DNA from: an uncultured Alphaproteobacteria bacterium | GTDB lineage: Bacteria; Pseudomonadota; Alphaproteobacteria; CAAHEQ01; UBA3637 | Length of the DNA: 35,079 nucleotides | Assembly (NCBI GenBank): GCA_947586835.1 | Contig: CANPXT010000002.1 | Coordinates: 87,009-122,087, forward strand | Direction: 5' to 3' | In this document: positions 9,489-31,303 of the stretch, piece after piece | Layout: each line of letters begins with the position of its first letter | How positions within the stretch are numbered: position 1 is the stretch's first letter | The notes under the pieces: generated by a model | What the model saw: only the letters and a program-made list of their open reading frames with translations | The model's database searches: none | Told to the model about the DNA's origin: nothing | Made by a program: the position numbers and the translations under genes

Positions 9489-9776
9489 CACATTTTTAAA
9501 AAATATTTGACAAATGATGCAATTATTTTATAAATATATGAAAAATTTATTCTTTTTTAATCATTTTTTTTAATAAGCTTCCCATATTTTTATTCAAAAA
9601 CTTAATATTTTACTAACTTGTTCCCAAAAATGAATGATTTTTATATTAAAAAACGAATCGTCTTTATCGGAAAAAAAATTTACCATAAAAACCAAACAAA
9701 AAGAAAAAAACAAATTATTGAATTATATAAAAAATAAAAAAACTTATCTTCAAAAACTCATTGTAAACGCATTTTT
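9489..9776. other. AT-rich intergenic stretch, no gene seen
   Basis: About 290 bp with very high A+T and stops in all frames. I see no convincing ORF, RNA or repeat. It separates the small RNA promoter from the end of the site-2 protease gene. Confidence 0.5.
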
Positions 9777-10454
9777 TTAAAAACCCGTCAACATGCCGAT
9801 TATTTTCATAAATAACGGGAAAAGGGTATTAATAAACCAACCCAACACGTTAATACCAAAAAACGGTAATATAAAAATCAACAATAACAACAGCATAAAA
9901 CCGTATTTTTCCGTTTCTTGATATTTTCCGCTGAGCCGACGCGGTAACAGTGAAGCTAAAACACGCCCGCCATCAAGCGGTAAAATCGGAAACAAATTGA
10001 AAATGCCTAAAACAACACTTAATAACACACCGTTATAAACATTTTGCGCAATCCATATACCGATAAACGAATCGACCGCAACAAACGGTAAAATTAAACG
10101 CGCAAAAATAACAAATCCGATTGCCAGTAAAAAGTTTGTAACCGGTCCGGCCAAAGCAACCAACCCCATATCTCTTTTCGGATGATGCAATGCATTAAAA
10201 TCAACGGGAACAGGCTTTGCCCACCCAAACAAAACAGGTGCTTGAATTGCCAACAATAAAAGCGGAAGAAGCACCGTTCCCACTAAATCTATATGATCAA
10301 ACGGATTTAAGGTTAATCGTCCGGCTCGCAATGCTGTTTTATCACCTAATTTTAAAGCGATAAATCCGTGTGCAACCTCATGCAAAATCAACGAAAGCAA
10401 CAGTGGCAATACCCACGTTGTTAAAGTATAAATGATATTATCGACACCGAACAT
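9777..10454 (-). CDS. Site-2 protease family (M50) membrane metalloprotease
   Basis: A 225-residue integral membrane protein of the short S2P class. The zinc motif HEVAH is at residues 25-29 in the first helix, followed by GFIALKLGDKTA. NPFDHIDLVGTVLLPLLLL and AGPVTNFLLA occur mid-protein, and NLFPILPLDGGRV carries the third zinc ligand Asp. About five hydrophobic segments are visible. These enzymes cleave substrates within the membrane; no PDZ domain is present, and the substrate is unknown. The ATG begins one base after the stop of the upstream SPOR-domain gene, so the two are probably co-transcribed. Confidence 0.9.
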   Translation of the reverse strand: MFGVDNIIYTLTTWVLPLLLSLILHEVAHGFIALKLGDKTALRAGRLTLNPFDHIDLVGTVLLPLLLLAIQAPVLFGWAKPVPVDFNALHHPKRDMGLVALAGPVTNFLLAIGFVIFARLILPFVAVDSFIGIWIAQNVYNGVLLSVVLGIFNLFPILPLDGGRVLASLLPRRLSGKYQETEKYGFMLLLLLIFILPFFGINVLGWFINTLFPLFMKIIGMLTGF

Positions 10455-11878: not shown

Positions 11879-11907
11879 AAAAACCTTGGAAAACCAAGGT
11901 TTTTTTT
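11879..11907. terminator. Bidirectional terminator after tRNA-Leu
   Basis: AACCTTGG and CCAAGGTT form a stem with an A4 loop (11881-11902), preceded by A and followed by T8. It follows tRNA-Leu directly and can also end the convergent VirB6-like operon. Confidence 0.85.
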
Positions 11908-12059
11908 ATATTTTTTCTTTTAAAATTATTTTTTAAATAATTATATCGTTTCTGATCCGTTTTCAAGGCTTTAAAAATATAAAAAAGGAAATAGAGCCAC
12001 GGAACAATTAAAACTTTATTTTTAATTATAACATAACTTTTGTTTCGAATAATCAATTA

Positions 12060-21865: not shown

Positions 21866-22354
21866 ATGGCAAGTTTACTTCCTTTCATCGATTCATATCA
21901 CACAAACCAGAATGAACAAAACAAAGCCTGTTGTGATAAAATTGTGCACAGTTTTGGCTATATTGCCGTCGGAAAGTCAGGAAATTGCTACATAAAATAC
22001 CCCTCATCTGTATAATCTTACGATAAAGAGACGTTTAAAGGGGTAAAAACATCGGAAAGCAAGAGTAAGCAAGCACAAACGCATCAAGAGAAACCAACGG
22101 AAGAAAGTGCAAATATACAGGAAAAAATGAAGCAAACGAATGATGCAAACTCTTCTGAAGAAGTGTCTTAAATACATCGACTGTCTGCAACTCCTGTTAA
22201 CGTAGAATCGCAAGCAAGAGCCCCCGCAGCATCAAAAAATAAAGTGCTCCACCGGCAATATGAAAATACTTTGCAAAAAAAACAGTGCAGAACTTATGCA
22301 AACATTAATAAACCGGCTCTGCAGGCACTCCTTCTTTTTTATACTGATTTTTAA
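21866..22354 (+). pseudogene. Probable decayed gene of about 160 codons with two in-frame TAA stops
   Basis: From ATG 21866 one frame reads on to a TAA at 22352-22354 with only two interruptions, TAA at 22013-22015 and TAA at 22169-22171. In DNA this AT-rich, a random frame should be stopped far more often. The first part (MASLLPFIDSYHTNQNEQNK) has two adjacent Cys and IVHSFGYIAVGKSGNCYIKY; the middle is Lys/Gln/Glu-rich; the end is basic. No family recognised and no Shine-Dalgarno is obvious. It ends converging on the next minus-strand gene, and the last codons overlap it by 4 bp. A chance open stretch remains possible. Confidence 0.4.
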
Positions 22355-22692
22355 TCAAAATAAGGCGCCAGATTAATCGGATAAGACACAACTTTTTCAA
22401 TCGGGACGACATAATCCCGAATCAACTGTTTTTCTTTATAATCAATTTCGGCAATGTAAATTTTTTGCGAATCTTGCAGAATTTTTTGCACTTCACTGTT
22501 TAAATAATCCAGTAATACAACATCTTTTTTATCACGATATAATAACGCGTGTTCATCGCCGTCATATAACAAATGCGGTGACTTCGGCTCACCCATTTTA
22601 ACGGATATGGCAAAAATTATTTCATTTTCCGTTGTGGGCATAGCGACATAGGCCTCTTCCTTTTCAATAAAAATCTTCGATGAGTCCTGCAC
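22351..22692 (-). CDS. Small protein of the ~110-residue repeat-cargo family (remote member)
   Basis: A 113-residue protein of unknown function starting at GTG 22692-22690, which overlaps the upstream stop (TAGTG). It aligns over its length with the proteins at 28.9 and 30.9 kb: KIFIEKEEAYVAMP against SIFIEDEKNYVAMP, ALLYRDKKDVVLLDYLNSEVQKIL against ALLLHDKNNGLILNRLDSNAQNIL, and IYIAEIDYKEKQLIRDYVVP against IHVAEIDYQKKQLKRDYIVP. The alignment supports the GTG start. No membrane segment or signal. It is much more diverged than the other two are from each other, so it is an older paralogue. It sits in a two-gene operon with the 103-residue gene. Confidence 0.8.
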   Translation of the reverse strand: MQDSSKIFIEKEEAYVAMPTTENEIIFAISVKMGEPKSPHLLYDGDEHALLYRDKKDVVLLDYLNSEVQKILQDSQKIYIAEIDYKEKQLIRDYVVPIEKVVSYPINLAPYFD

Positions 22693-23066: not shown

Positions 23067-24026
23067 TTAGTTTTTACTCATTTTTGTCCGCGGATGAGCC
23101 TGATCATAAACTTCCAACATATGCTCACGGTTAATTTGCGTATATCTTTGCGTTGCCGAAAGCGATGAGTGCCCCAATAACTCCTGTACTGTTCGTAAAT
23201 CACCGCCCCCCTCCAATATATGCGTTGCAAAACTATGGCGAAGCGCGTGCGGTGTAACGGTATCGGGCAAATTCAAATAGCGCCGAATATAACGCACGTT
23301 CCGCTGCACCACGCCCGCGTTTAACCGCTCGCCTCGCGATCCGACAAATAACGGCGATGAACCGATCGGTAACGGATGCACTTTTATCCATGCAAAAACT
23401 GCCTGATTGACAATCGGCAATAAAGGGACCAGTCGTTGCTTGTTGCCTTTTCCCGTAATCACAAACGCATCAGCATTTTTCGGAAAATCTTCAATATTGA
23501 GCGACAGCGCTTCTCCGATACGCAATCCGCACCCGTATAGCAAATAATAAAGAGCTTTATCTCTTTTAACCTGCCATTCTTCTTTCACAACCGCTGAAAC
23601 AGCTTCCAAAAATTCTTGCGCATCACCTATCGATAACGGATGCGGCATCATTTTTGCGGCACCACCCGTTCGCACTGACATCACCGATTGATTTTCAAAT
23701 ATTTCTTCTTTGGAACAATACTTAAAAAAATTGCGAATGGCCGACATTCCTCGCGACAAACTCGATCGCGCTATTTTTTGTCTGCTGCGCCAAACCAAAA
23801 AAGCCCGAAAGTCGGTAACGGTGAGTTTTTTTAAAGCGGATAACGTGACCTTTTCGCCCAAATGATCTTTTAAAAAGCACATAAAAGCTTTCATATCAAA
23901 ATCGTATGAATCGGTTGTATGCGTTGAAACACGCCGATCCAACAACAAATGTTTTTGCCAATTTTCAAGTAAAGAGATGGTTTTTGTGTCACAGGTTTCT
24001 TTAAAAGGGTTGTAATTTTCTTTCAT
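23067..24026 (-). CDS. xerC: Tyrosine recombinase XerC
   Basis: A 319-residue lambda-integrase-family recombinase with N-terminal SAM-like domain (~15-110, LLENWQKHLLLDRRVSTHT) and C-terminal catalytic domain. Catalytic residues are visible: R169 in GCGLRIGEAL, K193 in GKGNK, H260-x-x-R263 in PHALRHSFATH, H286 in LLGHSSL, and nucleophile Y295 in ATQRYT. All match XerC, which resolves chromosome dimers at dif with XerD. It is divergent from priA, an arrangement familiar in alphaproteobacteria. It could in principle act on other short inverted sites, but nothing here links it to the promoter inversion at 28.4 kb. Confidence 0.92.
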   Translation of the reverse strand: MKENYNPFKETCDTKTISLLENWQKHLLLDRRVSTHTTDSYDFDMKAFMCFLKDHLGEKVTLSALKKLTVTDFRAFLVWRSRQKIARSSLSRGMSAIRNFFKYCSKEEIFENQSVMSVRTGGAAKMMPHPLSIGDAQEFLEAVSAVVKEEWQVKRDKALYYLLYGCGLRIGEALSLNIEDFPKNADAFVITGKGNKQRLVPLLPIVNQAVFAWIKVHPLPIGSSPLFVGSRGERLNAGVVQRNVRYIRRYLNLPDTVTPHALRHSFATHILEGGGDLRTVQELLGHSSLSATQRYTQINREHMLEVYDQAHPRTKMSKN

Positions 24027-28295: not shown

Positions 28296-28441
28296 ACAAT
28301 ATCTGTTTATTGTTTTTGAAAAAATATAACATTAAAAAGTAAAGCTTTTATAATGTGCGTGAATGATGTTTACAGCGAAAAAGCAAAACATTTAATAAAA
28401 AATATAAAATTAAAACAAATAGTTACTCTTATTTTTTACAC

Positions 28442-28606
28442 AAAATAAACGTACCTTTAATGCAACGATTTTTTCTTAACTTTTCAAGGGCTTATAAAAT
28501 ATTTAAAACCAAAATGAAAAGATTTAAAAATCAATAATTTATAAAAAAAATAAATTTTTTTTGCCAAAAGTAAAAAAAAGTGTTGCAAAAATCGTACGTT
28601 TATTTT
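28442..28606 (+). promoter_or_regulatory. Candidate invertible promoter element, unit 1
   Basis: A perfect 13-bp inverted repeat, AAAATAAACGTAC (28442-28454) and GTACGTTTATTTT (28594-28606), bounds 139 bp. The right end supplies TTGCAA (28583-28588) 17 bp before TATAAT (28606-28611), driving the small ORF and cargo gene. In unit 2 the sequences at the two ends of the enclosed block are swapped and reverse-complemented, with the flanks unchanged. Confidence 0.65.
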
Positions 28607-28621
28607 ATAATTAATAGTCAA

Positions 28622-28634
28622 AGAACGATGTTCT
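28622..28634 (+). promoter_or_regulatory. Operator-like inverted repeat, unit 1
   Basis: AGAAC-GAT-GTTCT beginning about ten bases after the -10 box, so overlapping the likely start site. The same motif recurs at 29412-29424 and 30617-30629. Repressor binding is inferred. Confidence 0.4.
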
Positions 28635-28686
28635 GAAACATAAAAAAAGCATTAACGCTTTAATTTAACTGTCAAGGAGAAATTAC

Positions 28687-28824
28687 ATGAGAAAATATTC
28701 AAAAACAGCACTTATGTATTTATCACATGAGCACGATTATTTTCTAAAAAAACATGTATTTATGCTTTCGAACATTTTTCTCAGGCAAACCGGAAAACAA
28801 TTCATAACCGTTATGTCTTTTTGA
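28687..28824 (+). CDS. Small ORF / leader peptide, unit 1 (45 codons)
   Basis: ATG 28687 is preceded by a strong AAGGAG. The first ~18 residues, MRKYSKTALMYLSHE and the next three, are conserved in all three units. Beyond a poly-A run the three copies continue in three different frames because of small insertions and deletions. That suggests the conserved part acts as a short peptide or leader, and the rest of the predicted protein may not be selected. It lies 71 bp before the 109-residue gene. No family recognised. Confidence 0.5.
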   Translation: MRKYSKTALMYLSHEHDYFLKKHVFMLSNIFLRQTGKQFITVMSF

Positions 28825-28895
28825 ATGGTTTTGCTTGAATTAAAATAACCCACACGTTATTTGAAAAAATATTAATAATTTAATGGAGTATTAAA

Positions 28896-29225
28896 ATGGT
28901 TCGAAAACAATCTATTTTTATTGAAGACGAGAAAAATTATGTGGCCATGCCGATGCCGGATGATCAGTTGGTCATTGCTGTTCCCGTTCAGAAAAAAGCG
29001 CTAATCAATCCGGGCATTACTTATAGCGGACAGAAAAAAGCTCTGCTTTTACACGATAAAAACAACGGCCTTATTTTAAATCGATTGGATTCAAACGCGC
29101 AAAACATACTGAAAACGGCAAAATATATCCATGTAGCCGAAATTGATTATCAAAAAAAGCAACTAAAACGTGATTATATCGTACCGGTCAAATGCGGACA
29201 AATCAAAACTGATTCTTTGAAATAG
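28896..29225 (+). CDS. Cargo protein of the repeat array, 109 residues, copy 1
   Basis: A soluble protein of unknown function without signal or membrane segment. GGAG precedes ATG 28896 by about 8 nt. It closely matches the copy at 30891 and is remotely related to the protein at 22351. Invariant features across all three are IFIE/ICIE followed by YV(A/V)MP, an LxxDK core followed by a Leu-rich helix, and IxxAEI(D/N)Y-x-x-K-Q-L-x-RDY(I/V)VP near the C-terminus. Expression should come from the candidate invertible promoter through the small ORF. An immunity, regulatory or phage-defence role would fit such an array but nothing in the sequence proves one. Confidence 0.8.
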   Translation: MVRKQSIFIEDEKNYVAMPMPDDQLVIAVPVQKKALINPGITYSGQKKALLLHDKNNGLILNRLDSNAQNILKTAKYIHVAEIDYQKKQLKRDYIVPVKCGQIKTDSLK

Positions 29226-29307
29226 TTTGCGTTTTTCAGCATAAAAAAGCGAAACATTTAATAAAAAATATAAAATTAAAACAAATAGTTACTTTTATTT
29301 TTTACAC

Positions 29308-29396
29308 AAAATTAAACGTGCAATTTTTGCAACACATTTTTTGCCTACCCTTGAAAAGTTAAGAAAAAATCGTTGCATTAAAGGTGCGTTTATTTT
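29308..29396 (+). promoter_or_regulatory. Candidate invertible promoter element, unit 2 (opposite orientation to unit 1)
   Basis: The bounding repeats are imperfect (AAAATTAAACG and CGTTTATTTT). The enclosed ~66 bp read, in reverse complement, like the two ends of the unit 1 block without its ~70-bp middle. Here TTGCAT (29373-29378) sits 17 bp before the same TATAAT (29396-29401), replacing the TTGCAA of units 1 and 3. Confidence 0.65.
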
Positions 29397-29411
29397 ATAA
29401 TTAATAGTCAA

Positions 29412-29424
29412 AGAACGATGTTCT
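29412..29424 (+). promoter_or_regulatory. Operator-like inverted repeat, unit 2
   Basis: AGAAC-GAT-GTTCT at the same distance from the -10 box as in unit 1. Confidence 0.4.
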
Positions 29425-29476
29425 GGAACATCAATAAAGCATTAACGCTTTAATTTAACTGTCAAGAAGAAATTAC

Positions 29477-29614
29477 ATGAGAAAATATTCAAAAACAGCG
29501 CTTATGTATTTATCACACGAGTACGGTTATTCTAAAAAAAACATATATTTATACTTTCGAGCGTTTTTCTCAAGCAAAACCGAAAAATCATTCATAACCG
29601 TTATGTATTGTTGA
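29477..29614 (+). CDS. Small ORF / leader peptide, unit 2 (45 codons)
   Basis: MRKYSKTALMYLSHEYGYSK matches the other units at the N-terminus. The Shine-Dalgarno is AAGAAG rather than AAGGAG, probably weaker. An eight-A run (seven in unit 3) shifts the frame of the C-terminal part. It ends 36 bp before the GNAT gene. Confidence 0.45.
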   Translation: MRKYSKTALMYLSHEYGYSKKNIYLYFRAFFSSKTEKSFITVMYC

Positions 29615-29650
29615 ATGGTTTTGTTGAACTAAAATAAGGGGAAAAATTAA

Positions 29651-30154
29651 ATGCAATATCAATTAGAAAAAGTTACTTTAGAAAAAATGGTCCAACTCTA
29701 TTCTTTTTATCAACAGATACCCGCTTCGGAATGTGGTTTTGAGAACCCGGCTTTTGGACTTTCGATCTCCGATTTTGAAGGATATCTGCAAAAAAGAATA
29801 GATTCTGCAAATGGAAAAAATTTAAAACCCGGCAGGGTCCCATCAACAGAATATATATTTTATGTAGATGGCCTCCCTGTAGGATTAGCTAGATTAAGAC
29901 ATTATTTAACAGAGGATTTACTCAAACATGCAGGACATTTAGCCTTCGCTATAGTGCCAAAATTCAGAGGTCGTGGTTTCGCCACTATATTGTTAAAAGA
30001 GGTTTTAGAGGAAGCAAGACAGAAGTGCATAAATAAAGTATTGTTAACCTGCAATCTTGATAATATCGGGAGTTACAAAACCATTGAAAAAAACGGTGGT
30101 ATTTTGGAAAAAATAGAAAATAATGAACGCTTTTATTGGATAACGCTATCGTGA
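29651..30154 (+). CDS. GNAT family N-acetyltransferase, cargo of unit 2
   Basis: A 167-residue GNAT protein. The acetyl-CoA loop is seen in LAFAIVPKFRGRGFATILLKEV (R-G-R-G-F-A), followed by the family's typical VLLTCNLDNIGSYKTIEKNGG. AAGGGG precedes ATG 29651. It occupies the position held by the 109-residue gene in units 1 and 3 and would be transcribed from the unit 2 promoter. Substrate unknown; with only sequence, small-molecule, peptide or antibiotic acetylation cannot be told apart. Its flanks and the neighbouring gene remnant suggest acquisition from elsewhere. Confidence 0.9.
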   Translation: MQYQLEKVTLEKMVQLYSFYQQIPASECGFENPAFGLSISDFEGYLQKRIDSANGKNLKPGRVPSTEYIFYVDGLPVGLARLRHYLTEDLLKHAGHLAFAIVPKFRGRGFATILLKEVLEEARQKCINKVLLTCNLDNIGSYKTIEKNGGILEKIENNERFYWITLS

Positions 30155-30496
30155 TCGATTATGACGCTCATTTTTAATTTGATTCAGATGCAGTAACTTG
30201 TTGTTGTGTCCGTTTACAACATTACAGATAAGATAGTTGACGAAGAAGTCTTTTGCTTGTTCTAATTGTGTCTTTGCTATATATTTATTTTTAGTATGTG
30301 CTTGCAGAATCGATCCCGGCTCTAATAAAATGGTTGGAATACCTTTCTCTGCAAAAACAGGGGCTTCAGAACCAAAACTGGCACCTAATATTTCATTTTT
30401 AGGGAAAAGTGTTTCAATATTTTTCAAAAACTCTGAGTTTGAATTACAAAGAAAAGATGGATATGATTTACTTACCTCAAATTTTATGCGTGATTT
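30146..30496 (-). pseudogene. C-terminal remnant of an M20 peptidase / ArgE-like deacetylase
   Basis: The minus frame from about 30496 to TAG 30146-30148 encodes ILGASFGSEAPVFAEKGIPT followed by LLEPGSILQAHTKNKYIAK and a final helix. That is the C-terminal part of M20-family metallohydrolases (acetylornithine deacetylase type), with the AH of GSILQAH as a conserved histidine. The first ~280 residues with the other metal ligands are absent. Its 5' end stops where repeat-unit sequence resumes (~30497). The stop overlaps the end of the convergent GNAT gene by 9 bp, so both probably came in one piece. Confidence 0.65.
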
Positions 30497-30530
30497 AAAA
30501 ATAATATTAATAATTTAATGAAGTATTAAA

Positions 30531-30557
30531 ATGGTTCGAAAACAATCTATTTTTTAG
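30531..30557 (+). pseudogene. Eight-codon stump of the 109-residue cargo gene, unit 2
   Basis: ATG GTT CGA AAA CAA TCT ATT TTT TAG: the 5' end and upstream spacer of the cargo gene are intact, then sequence passes straight into the unit 3 promoter block (GGCAAAAAATGA). This marks a deletion or recombination junction at about 30555. Confidence 0.8.
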
Positions 30558-30577
30558 GCAAAAAATGAAAAAAAGTG

Positions 30578-30606
30578 TTGCAAAAATCGTACGTTTATTT
30601 TATACT
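30578..30606 (+). promoter_or_regulatory. Promoter of unit 3 (same orientation as unit 1, left repeat lost)
   Basis: TTGCAA (30578-30583), 17 bp, TATACT (30601-30606). The right-hand repeat GTACGTTTATTTT is present, but the left repeat and half of the block are missing, so this copy could not invert by the same means. Confidence 0.6.
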
Positions 30607-30616
30607 TAAGAGTTAC

Positions 30617-30629
30617 AGAACAATGTTCT
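30617..30629 (+). promoter_or_regulatory. Operator-like inverted repeat, unit 3
   Basis: AGAAC-AAT-GTTCT; the arms are unchanged while one loop base differs from units 1 and 2, which suggests the arms are selected. Confidence 0.45.
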
Positions 30630-30681
30630 GGAACATAAATAAAGCATTAACGCTTTAATTTAACTGTCAAGGAGAAACTAC

Positions 30682-30801
30682 ATGAGAAAACATTTAAAAA
30701 AAACGCTTATGTATTTATCACACGAGTACGGTTATTCTAAAAAAACATGTATTTATACTTTCGAGCGTTTTTCTCAAACAAAACCGAAAAACAATTCATA
30801 A
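30682..30801 (+). CDS. Small ORF / leader peptide, unit 3 (39 codons)
   Basis: MRKHLKKTLMYLSHEYGYSK, with AAGGAG before ATG 30682. It differs at the N-terminus from units 1 and 2 (HLKKT for YSKTA) but keeps MYLSHEYGYSKK. After the seven-A run it ends in its own frame at TAA 30799-30801. Confidence 0.5.
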   Translation: MRKHLKKTLMYLSHEYGYSKKTCIYTFERFSQTKPKNNS

Positions 30802-30890
30802 CCGTTATGTATTGTTGAATGGTTTTGTTTGAACTGAAATAAACTACACATTATTTAAAAATAATATTAATAATTTAATGGAGTATTAAA

Positions 30891-31220
30891 ATGATTCGAA
30901 AACAATCTATTTGCATTGAAAATGAGAAAAATTATGTGGTCATGCCCATGCCGGATGATCAGTTGGTCATTGCTGTTCCCGTTCAGAAAAGAGCGCCAAT
31001 AAATCCGAGCATTGCTTATAACGGACAGAAAAAAGCTCTGTTTTTACATGATAAAAACAACGGTCTTATTTTAAATCGGTTGGATTCAACCGCGCAAGAT
31101 ATACTGAAAACGGCAAAATATATCCATGTAGCCGAAATCAATTATCAAAAAAAGCAACTAAAACGTGATTACATCGTACCGGTCAAATGCGGACAAATCA
31201 AAATCGATGCTTCGAAATAG
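30891..31220 (+). CDS. Cargo protein of the repeat array, 109 residues, copy 2
   Basis: The near-identical sister of the gene at 28896, with about fifteen amino-acid changes (for example ICIENEKNYVVMP for IFIEDEKNYVAMP). The same GGAG site lies before ATG 30891. Most differences are conservative and the frame is open throughout, so both copies appear to be under selection. It follows the unit 3 small ORF by 89 bp. Function unknown. Confidence 0.8.
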   Translation: MIRKQSICIENEKNYVVMPMPDDQLVIAVPVQKRAPINPSIAYNGQKKALFLHDKNNGLILNRLDSTAQDILKTAKYIHVAEINYQKKQLKRDYIVPVKCGQIKIDASK

Positions 31221-31274
31221 TTTGCGTTTTTTTGAACAAAATGCATTTTTTTCCGTTTTTGTAAATAAAATATC

Positions 31275-31303
31275 TTGTCAAATAAAAAAATTTTCGATAT
31301 TTT
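31275..31303 (+). promoter_or_regulatory. Possible promoter of the efflux operon
   Basis: TTGTCA (31275-31280), 17 bp, TATTTT (31298-31303), about 28 bp before the start codon. Confidence 0.45.

Follow-up and report, generated by a model that had tools for sequence, protein, structure and literature searches.

Unit 1, a 165-bp promoter segment in a 35,079-nt stretch of contig CANPXT010000002.1 (the whole stretch analysed, hereafter the window), appears to be one copy of a promoter cassette of 164-168 bp that is likely inverted genome-wide by a serine recombinase related to Mpi, the master DNA invertase, with the effect of switching surface-protein genes. Judging from the sequences compared, we put the probability of this reading at about 0.85. 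The Mpi-like enzyme would cut inside the GTAC core of the half-sites that end the cassette, at the central TA given the mode of action of serine recombinases. Arm A, turned toward the gene, would supply a strong promoter (ON), and arm B would supply a weak, differently controlled promoter or none (OFF). As found in the window, unit 1 would be in the ON orientation. The features of the window discussed here are as follows, in window coordinates.

28442..28606, + strand: unit 1, predicted full 165-bp invertible promoter segment, arm A rightward to 28687/28896
28442..28454, + strand: left 13-bp inverted repeat of unit 1, AAAATAAACGTAC, half-site adjoining arm B
28594..28606, + strand: right 13-bp inverted repeat of unit 1, GTACGTTTATTTT, half-site adjoining arm A
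28541..28588, + strand: arm A promoter half of unit 1, an A/T tract followed by TTGCAA (-35, 28583-28588)
28606..28611, + strand: fixed -10 of unit 1, TATAAT, of which the first T alone lies inside the segment
28687..28824, + strand: 45-codon ORF behind unit 1, remnant of an autotransporter-family N-terminus (MRKYSKTALMYLSHE...)
28896..29225, + strand: 109-aa protein, family unknown, the first longer ORF behind unit 1
29309..29396, - strand: unit 2, shrunken 88-bp segment, arm B rightward, TTGCAT at 29373-29378, TATAAT at 29396-29401
29477..29614, + strand: second 45-codon remnant, behind unit 2
30560..30606, + strand: unit 3, arm A half-element only, TTGCAA at 30578, TATACT at 30601
30891..31220, + strand: paralogous 109-aa gene, behind unit 3

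The original prediction had described units 1 and 2 as neighbouring copies of a promoter carried in opposite orientations, and its letter-level claims are borne out: the left arm of unit 1 (28453-28490) is the reverse complement of the right arm of unit 2 (29348-29385) at 38 of 38 positions, the 13-bp inverted repeat bounding unit 1 (28442-28454 and 28594-28606) is perfect, and TTGCAA (28583) and TTGCAT (29373) both lie 17 bp upstream of TATAAT. The arms are indeed reversed between the same outer flanks, but unit 2, at 88 bp, is no simple inverse of unit 1; by alignment it corresponds to an inverted unit 1 minus 77 internal bp, its inverted repeat is imperfect, and it is perhaps a dead as well as a shrunken copy. 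For unit 3 a left arm was looked for and not found, so inversion is not expected there. Unit 3 comes immediately after a second copy of the start of the 109-aa gene (30493-30606 together), likely a recombination scar, and a GNAT acetyltransferase gene (PF00583; 29651-30154, + strand) separates unit 2 from unit 3 and looks like an insertion in the array.

By itself the 13-bp repeat of unit 1 proves little, because when 28301-31300 was shuffled with dinucleotides preserved, 52 of 500 shuffles contained a perfect repeat of that length at 60-260 bp spacing, and the window holds two more such repeats, both A/T-only (9635-9892 and 11902-11999). That frequency, taken with the 45-codon remnants that stand behind units 1 and 2, would suit a view in which the two units are no more than promoters duplicated and diverged within an autotransporter family in decay, the repeat being fortuitous. 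We find this scarcely credible, since the cassette precedes other gene families in four genomes and controls with the pattern reversed gave zero; the family to which unit 1 belongs is real because the segment recurs across genomes.

The 45-codon ORFs start like the proteins behind elements C2:467, C20:455 and C22:1105 (KYSKTALMYLSHE) and then break off. The C22 protein carries PMP repeats, and two proteins with the same start in a congeneric genome (G008) carry PMP repeats plus an autotransporter domain. With the autotransporter starts beside units 1 and 2 decayed, unit 1 probably drives the 109-aa gene at 28896 now. A search of a large protein collection with that 109-aa protein returned three proteins: itself, its paralog behind unit 3 (85%), and one 95% identical on a 4-kb contig. 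A 113-aa paralog of the 109-aa proteins, with 41% identity, is encoded at 22354-22692 on the - strand, downstream of a tyrosine recombinase gene (23067-24026). The system as a whole looks live, and units 1 and 2 occupy a decayed part of it.

The rest of that system was surveyed beyond the window. Queried with 343 bp of sequence surrounding unit 1, the assembly to which the window belongs (G000; 1.317 Mb, 29 contigs, 83% complete) gave at least 40 match rows, scoring having covered 40 of the 99 candidates; the rows include the window's own units and inverted arm matches. Elements were defined by paired half-sites with at most four mismatches, TTGCA in at least one arm, and a length of 158-172 bp. 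By this rule 158 elements were found: 16 in G000, 25 in G007, 61 in G008, 51 in G009, and five (4 + 1) on two stray contigs. The 153 in the four congeneric genomes, of which parts were examined, are 164-168 bp long, and lengths over all 158 are 164 bp (3), 165 (16), 166 (88), 167 (50) and 168 (1). Stretches were picked by a match to unit 1 or to the arm A pattern, so these numbers are not whole-genome counts. Whole-genome counts of the half-site are 22, 55, 169 and 149 in four genomes of the genus and zero in the other 39 of the 43 family genomes, and the reversed half-site pattern, used as a control, is found zero times in all 43. Assuming two half-sites per element, G008 would hold about 84 elements and G009 about 75. 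Two cassette-bearing contigs, L222 and L235, are filed under Akkermansia and Gastranaerophilales MAGs and are probably misbinned. No same-strain pair was obtained via stray contigs among the matches listed (60, all to L222, 68-91% identical). A phage origin was considered and set aside, the exact arm A pattern being found in zero stretches of viral contigs.

Each cassette consists of two unlike arms, each ending in an inverted half-site around the core GTAC, while the -10 lies outside the segment. Arm A has TTGCAA as its -35 in 151 of the 158 elements and TTGCAT in seven; at the corresponding position arm B has TTGCAT (136), ACCAAC (11), TTGCAA (9) or CACAAC (2). A/T content over the 42 bp preceding the -35 is 81.5% for arm A, which carries an A/T tract, against 60.1% for arm B; arm A is the richer in 158 of 158 elements, three arms having been assigned by A/T content itself. 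The original prediction held that inversion exchanges one -35 context for another and is not a plain on/off switch. This is true of units 1 and 2; it fails for 10 of the 16 full elements of the same genome, in which arm B has ACCAAC and no TTGCA at the -35 position, so that the majority in this genome have the look of plain on/off switches. In G008 and G009 a palindrome of GGTAATTTTACC type in arm B resembled an operator, an idea that is not put forward here: of 97 rows, 15 reach five of six pairs and none reaches six.

The gene side of each element was taken as the side with the better -10 score, and ON and OFF calls depend on that choice; two of the 158 elements are undecided as to side and three arm calls are ties. 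The hexamers on the gene side, TATGCT (75), TATACA (31), GTATAC (22) and TATAAT (10) of 156, are partly circular because the side was chosen by -10 score; those on the other side include TGTGCA (39), GATACA (16) and GATGCA (15). Two elements, L083 (G008 C19:9480) and L158 (G007 C21:17266), have an equally good -10 on either side and could swap expression between two divergent genes. With sides so assigned, arm A is turned to the gene in 18 elements (ON) and arm B in 138 (OFF), the remaining two being undecided.

By sequence, then, the cassette encloses a predicted promoter element between inverted repeats, and matching loci carry it in either orientation when species or paralogs are compared. 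The orthologous elements G008 C6:41805 and G009 C67:6100, from two species, share flanks at 270 of 301 (90%) and 284 of 300 (95%) positions and stand in opposite orientation: their segments agree at 103 of 179 positions as they are and at 151 of 166 after inversion. The paralogs G000 C1:66 and C4:83588 share flanks at 65/65 and 293/301, with segments matching at 96/172 as is and 156/166 after inversion. In both pairs, base-by-base comparison shows that the outermost part of the repeat belongs with its flank whichever way the segment lies. Opposite orientations combined with an outer half that keeps to its flank point to exchange in or near GTAC. Arm labels rest on the inner bases, which makes the outer half the informative result. 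Of the 46 OFF elements of G009, 31 have a far-side outer half TTTTTT beside arm A, and of its five ON elements three have it beside arm B; in G008 it occurs in 13 of 55 OFF and none of five ON elements, so that the G009 result is not repeated there.

The same comparisons bear on whether the cassettes might instead be a non-autonomous, MITE-like mobile element that inserted either way and carries outward promoters. Uniform length (164-168 bp), terminal inverted repeats, many copies, and the position of several copies at contig ends would all fit such an element. We nevertheless judge it very unlikely: the repeat's outer portion is tied to the flank and not to the element, the segment lies in either direction between orthologous flanks that are 90-95% identical, and the commonest hexamers beside the two ends differ, with no target-site duplication, a limited test in which the side was set by -10 score.

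Among the first 110 elements, 12 pairs have both flanks matching and the segment reversed; eight of the 12 involve G009 C20:16107, and one also matches unreversed. Flank matches with the same arm outnumber those with opposite arms by 1153 to 105, which may mean that flipping proceeds slowly, is biased or is opposed by selection. This excess, and the decay of units 2 and 3, would also be expected if the orientation differences were old fixed inversions or products of gene conversion, with no flipping today; homologous recombination or gene conversion between copies could be another way to swap arms. That nothing flips any longer seems unlikely to us in view of the half-site pairs kept in 158 copies (at most four mismatches being the inclusion rule) and of the candidate invertases present, whose reading frames are open and which have resolvase domains. 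An actively invertible cassette remains the preferred reading, and the original call of an invertible promoter at unit 1 gains support from the uniform length, the two orientations at paralogous and orthologous loci, the exchange inside the repeat, and the Mpi-like invertases in the genome.

The genome of the window encodes eight PF00239 proteins, six of them small, and two PF00589 proteins (tyrosine recombinases). Both of the latter, including the one at 23067-24026, look XerC/XerD-like by eye and are less likely to be the flipping enzyme. The six small serine recombinases match NF009949, the master DNA invertase Mpi family, two above its cut-off of 272 bits (285 and 281) and four below it (268, 264, 263 and 249), the score of 264 (263.8) belonging to a gene linked to dnaA. 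The inverted-repeat consensus of Bacteroides fragilis, close to ARACGTWCGT, may be like AAACGTACGT here. Matches to the Mpi family occur in 10 of 10 genomes of the genus, over cut-off in nine, and the half-site occurs in four; the family alone therefore does not predict the half-site. Side by side in G000 (C4:91346-93722, L047-L049) lie two Mpi-like recombinase genes and a large serine recombinase gene in tandem.

A tree was built from 26 near-full-length recombinases; partial matches were unused, and G004 C70, G004 C66 and G003 C38 were dropped, having been missed by the motif filter. One clade (support 100/98, members 81-95% identical) has one member from each of the four element-bearing genomes. 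It is the dnaA/hsp20-linked clade, and the only invertase clade seen in all four, although absences from G007 (77% complete) and G009 (76%) weigh little. Its nearest outsider, G001 C26, is 67-68% identical. The gene follows dnaA-like and hsp20-like ORFs in G000, G007, G009 and G001; for G008 the stretch begins only at hsp20. Pfam matches bear out the DnaA and HSP20 identities in G000 and that of DnaA in G001. The G000 protein matches PF00239, the serine recombinase domain, at 3e-30 and PF13936 (HTH) at 5.5e-5, which is under that family's own cut-off; phmmer relates it to gamma-delta resolvase (1.4e-8) and to a solved DNA-invertase (1.5e-7). It thus has the resolvase domain of the small serine recombinases, such as gamma-delta resolvase and the DNA invertases, and differs from them in its 235 residues, with a C-terminal end longer than the 203-position Mpi model, and in lying far from the switches on which it would act.

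In G001, segments of 168, 153 and 152 bp (L066 1423-1590; L074 1395-1547 and 2777-2928) have a similar TTGCA arm and other repeats, for example AAAGGGACGTTT; one arm of these segments contains GAGTTGCA or GTGTTGCA. The differing repeats, in effect a second code within the genus, are as expected if enzyme and site diverged together. From this pattern of sequence relationships we infer that the Mpi-like gene adjoining dnaA and hsp20 encodes the best candidate enzyme. No half-site lies within 1.5 kb of any of the six Mpi-like genes of G000; half-sites do lie within that distance of Mpi-like genes at three G008 and G009 loci (L174, L178 and L188) and at L197, where the match covers the C-terminal part only. 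On G008 C15 the Mpi-like gene and an element are some 1.2 kb apart. Frames of about 220-240 aa on G009 C16, C26, C44, C49 and C2 repeatedly match the Mpi C-terminal part only and are perhaps recombinase-derived DNA binders.

By motif, a prepilin-like start follows on the chosen gene side of 114 of the 158 elements (93 large genes, 13 small, eight cut by the end of the stretch), which is an independent check of the gene side; the first ATG of the 93 large genes is a median 32 bp away. Other targets encode autotransporters and ankyrin proteins, and behind one cassette (L034 2146-7017, - strand) lies a gene for a 1624-aa prepilin-like protein with Mucin-2 WxxW domains. Target genes show the prepilin N-terminus and, in the one product modelled, the pilin fold that together characterize type IVb pilins. 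In the model a type IVb pilin fold is linked to a putative C-type-lectin fold through a Cys-rich region of poor model quality, so that folds known from type IVb pilins and from C-type lectin-like domains would stand in one protein, here in a family of dozens of paralogs. Foldseek alone gave no match at E <= 0.001, and profile A1 gave zero hits among PDB sequences. Prepilin peptidase (PF01478) was found in nine of 10 genus genomes, eight over cut-off, and was not found in G000, the assembly that is 83% complete.

Large pilin genes rarely face arm A: one of five does in G000, one of 12 in G007, none of 42 in G008 and one of 32 in G009. In all, three of 93 do, two on a stray contig included, compared with 15 of 63 other decided elements (Fisher p 1.5e-4). 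For G000 the count would be one of seven with a pilin-like gene missed by the motif (C1:7053) and one that is cut (C8:64184), both OFF. Each assembly shows one orientation only, and independent switching at a low ON rate gives similar numbers, so expression of one gene at a time is put forward as a hypothesis. It is conceivable, if rather doubtful, that this gut alphaproteobacterium with its small genome practises antigenic variation in which one core-genome invertase controls near-identical invertible promoters before dozens of type IVb pilin/C-type-lectin adhesins, at most one of them in the strong orientation at any time.

In Bacteroides fragilis, according to excerpts of two reports, the single serine recombinase Mpi inverts 13 (at least thirteen) regions (PMC4747536, PMC5903667). 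As these excerpts describe it, the Mpi regulon shares with the cassettes the class of small serine recombinase and the many distant invertible promoters before genes for surface structures, and the NCBIfam Mpi model matches recombinases here. The differences, again as far as the excerpts go, are the lineage, an alphaproteobacterium; the number, about 75-84 cassettes in the two richest genomes by half-site estimate against 13 regions; the form, a fixed cassette of two arms and about 165 bp that does not include the -10; and the targets, prepilin-like and autotransporter genes here and capsule operons there. By analogy, the system may work like the Mpi regulon, in a different lineage and with a single cassette repeated many more times.

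A gut survey with PhaseFinder and PhaseFinderDC reports, in the part of its text used here, 1837 invertons in a 125-strain community, with up to 181 per genome (Mitsuokella; PMC11892184), beside which our per-genome totals are no record. Those invertons are likewise promoters bounded by inverted repeats near surface genes, one in Akkermansia lying beside autotransporter-domain proteins, and their calls rest on reads, whereas ours rest on assembly comparison. The largest repeat-homology group given in that text has 72 members across the whole community; here 51 and 61 full elements come from parts of single genomes. A survey of sequenced bacteria, as excerpted, lists the inversion signature in none of four Alphaproteobacteria, and it points to Moraxella bovis as a case in which gene inversion brings about pilin phase variation (PMC5903667), so pilin switching by inversion is not new as such. 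In the open-licence PMC literature we found nothing on invertons in Alphaproteobacteria, on invertible promoters with prepilin phase variation in that class, or on phase variation of type IV pilins with C-type lectin domains; a review answers to invertible promoters and serine recombinases in the class, and six papers answer to pilin phase variation by DNA inversion at invertible promoters.

If the proposed reading is true, global promoter inversion by serine invertases extends to the Alphaproteobacteria and is tied to an uncommon kind of target, the prepilin-like adhesins that these genomes of 1.3-1.6 Mb encode by the tens. The cassettes are short and uniform, so the orientation of a whole repertoire could be read from ordinary metagenome reads, which makes the expression of adhesins one at a time directly testable.
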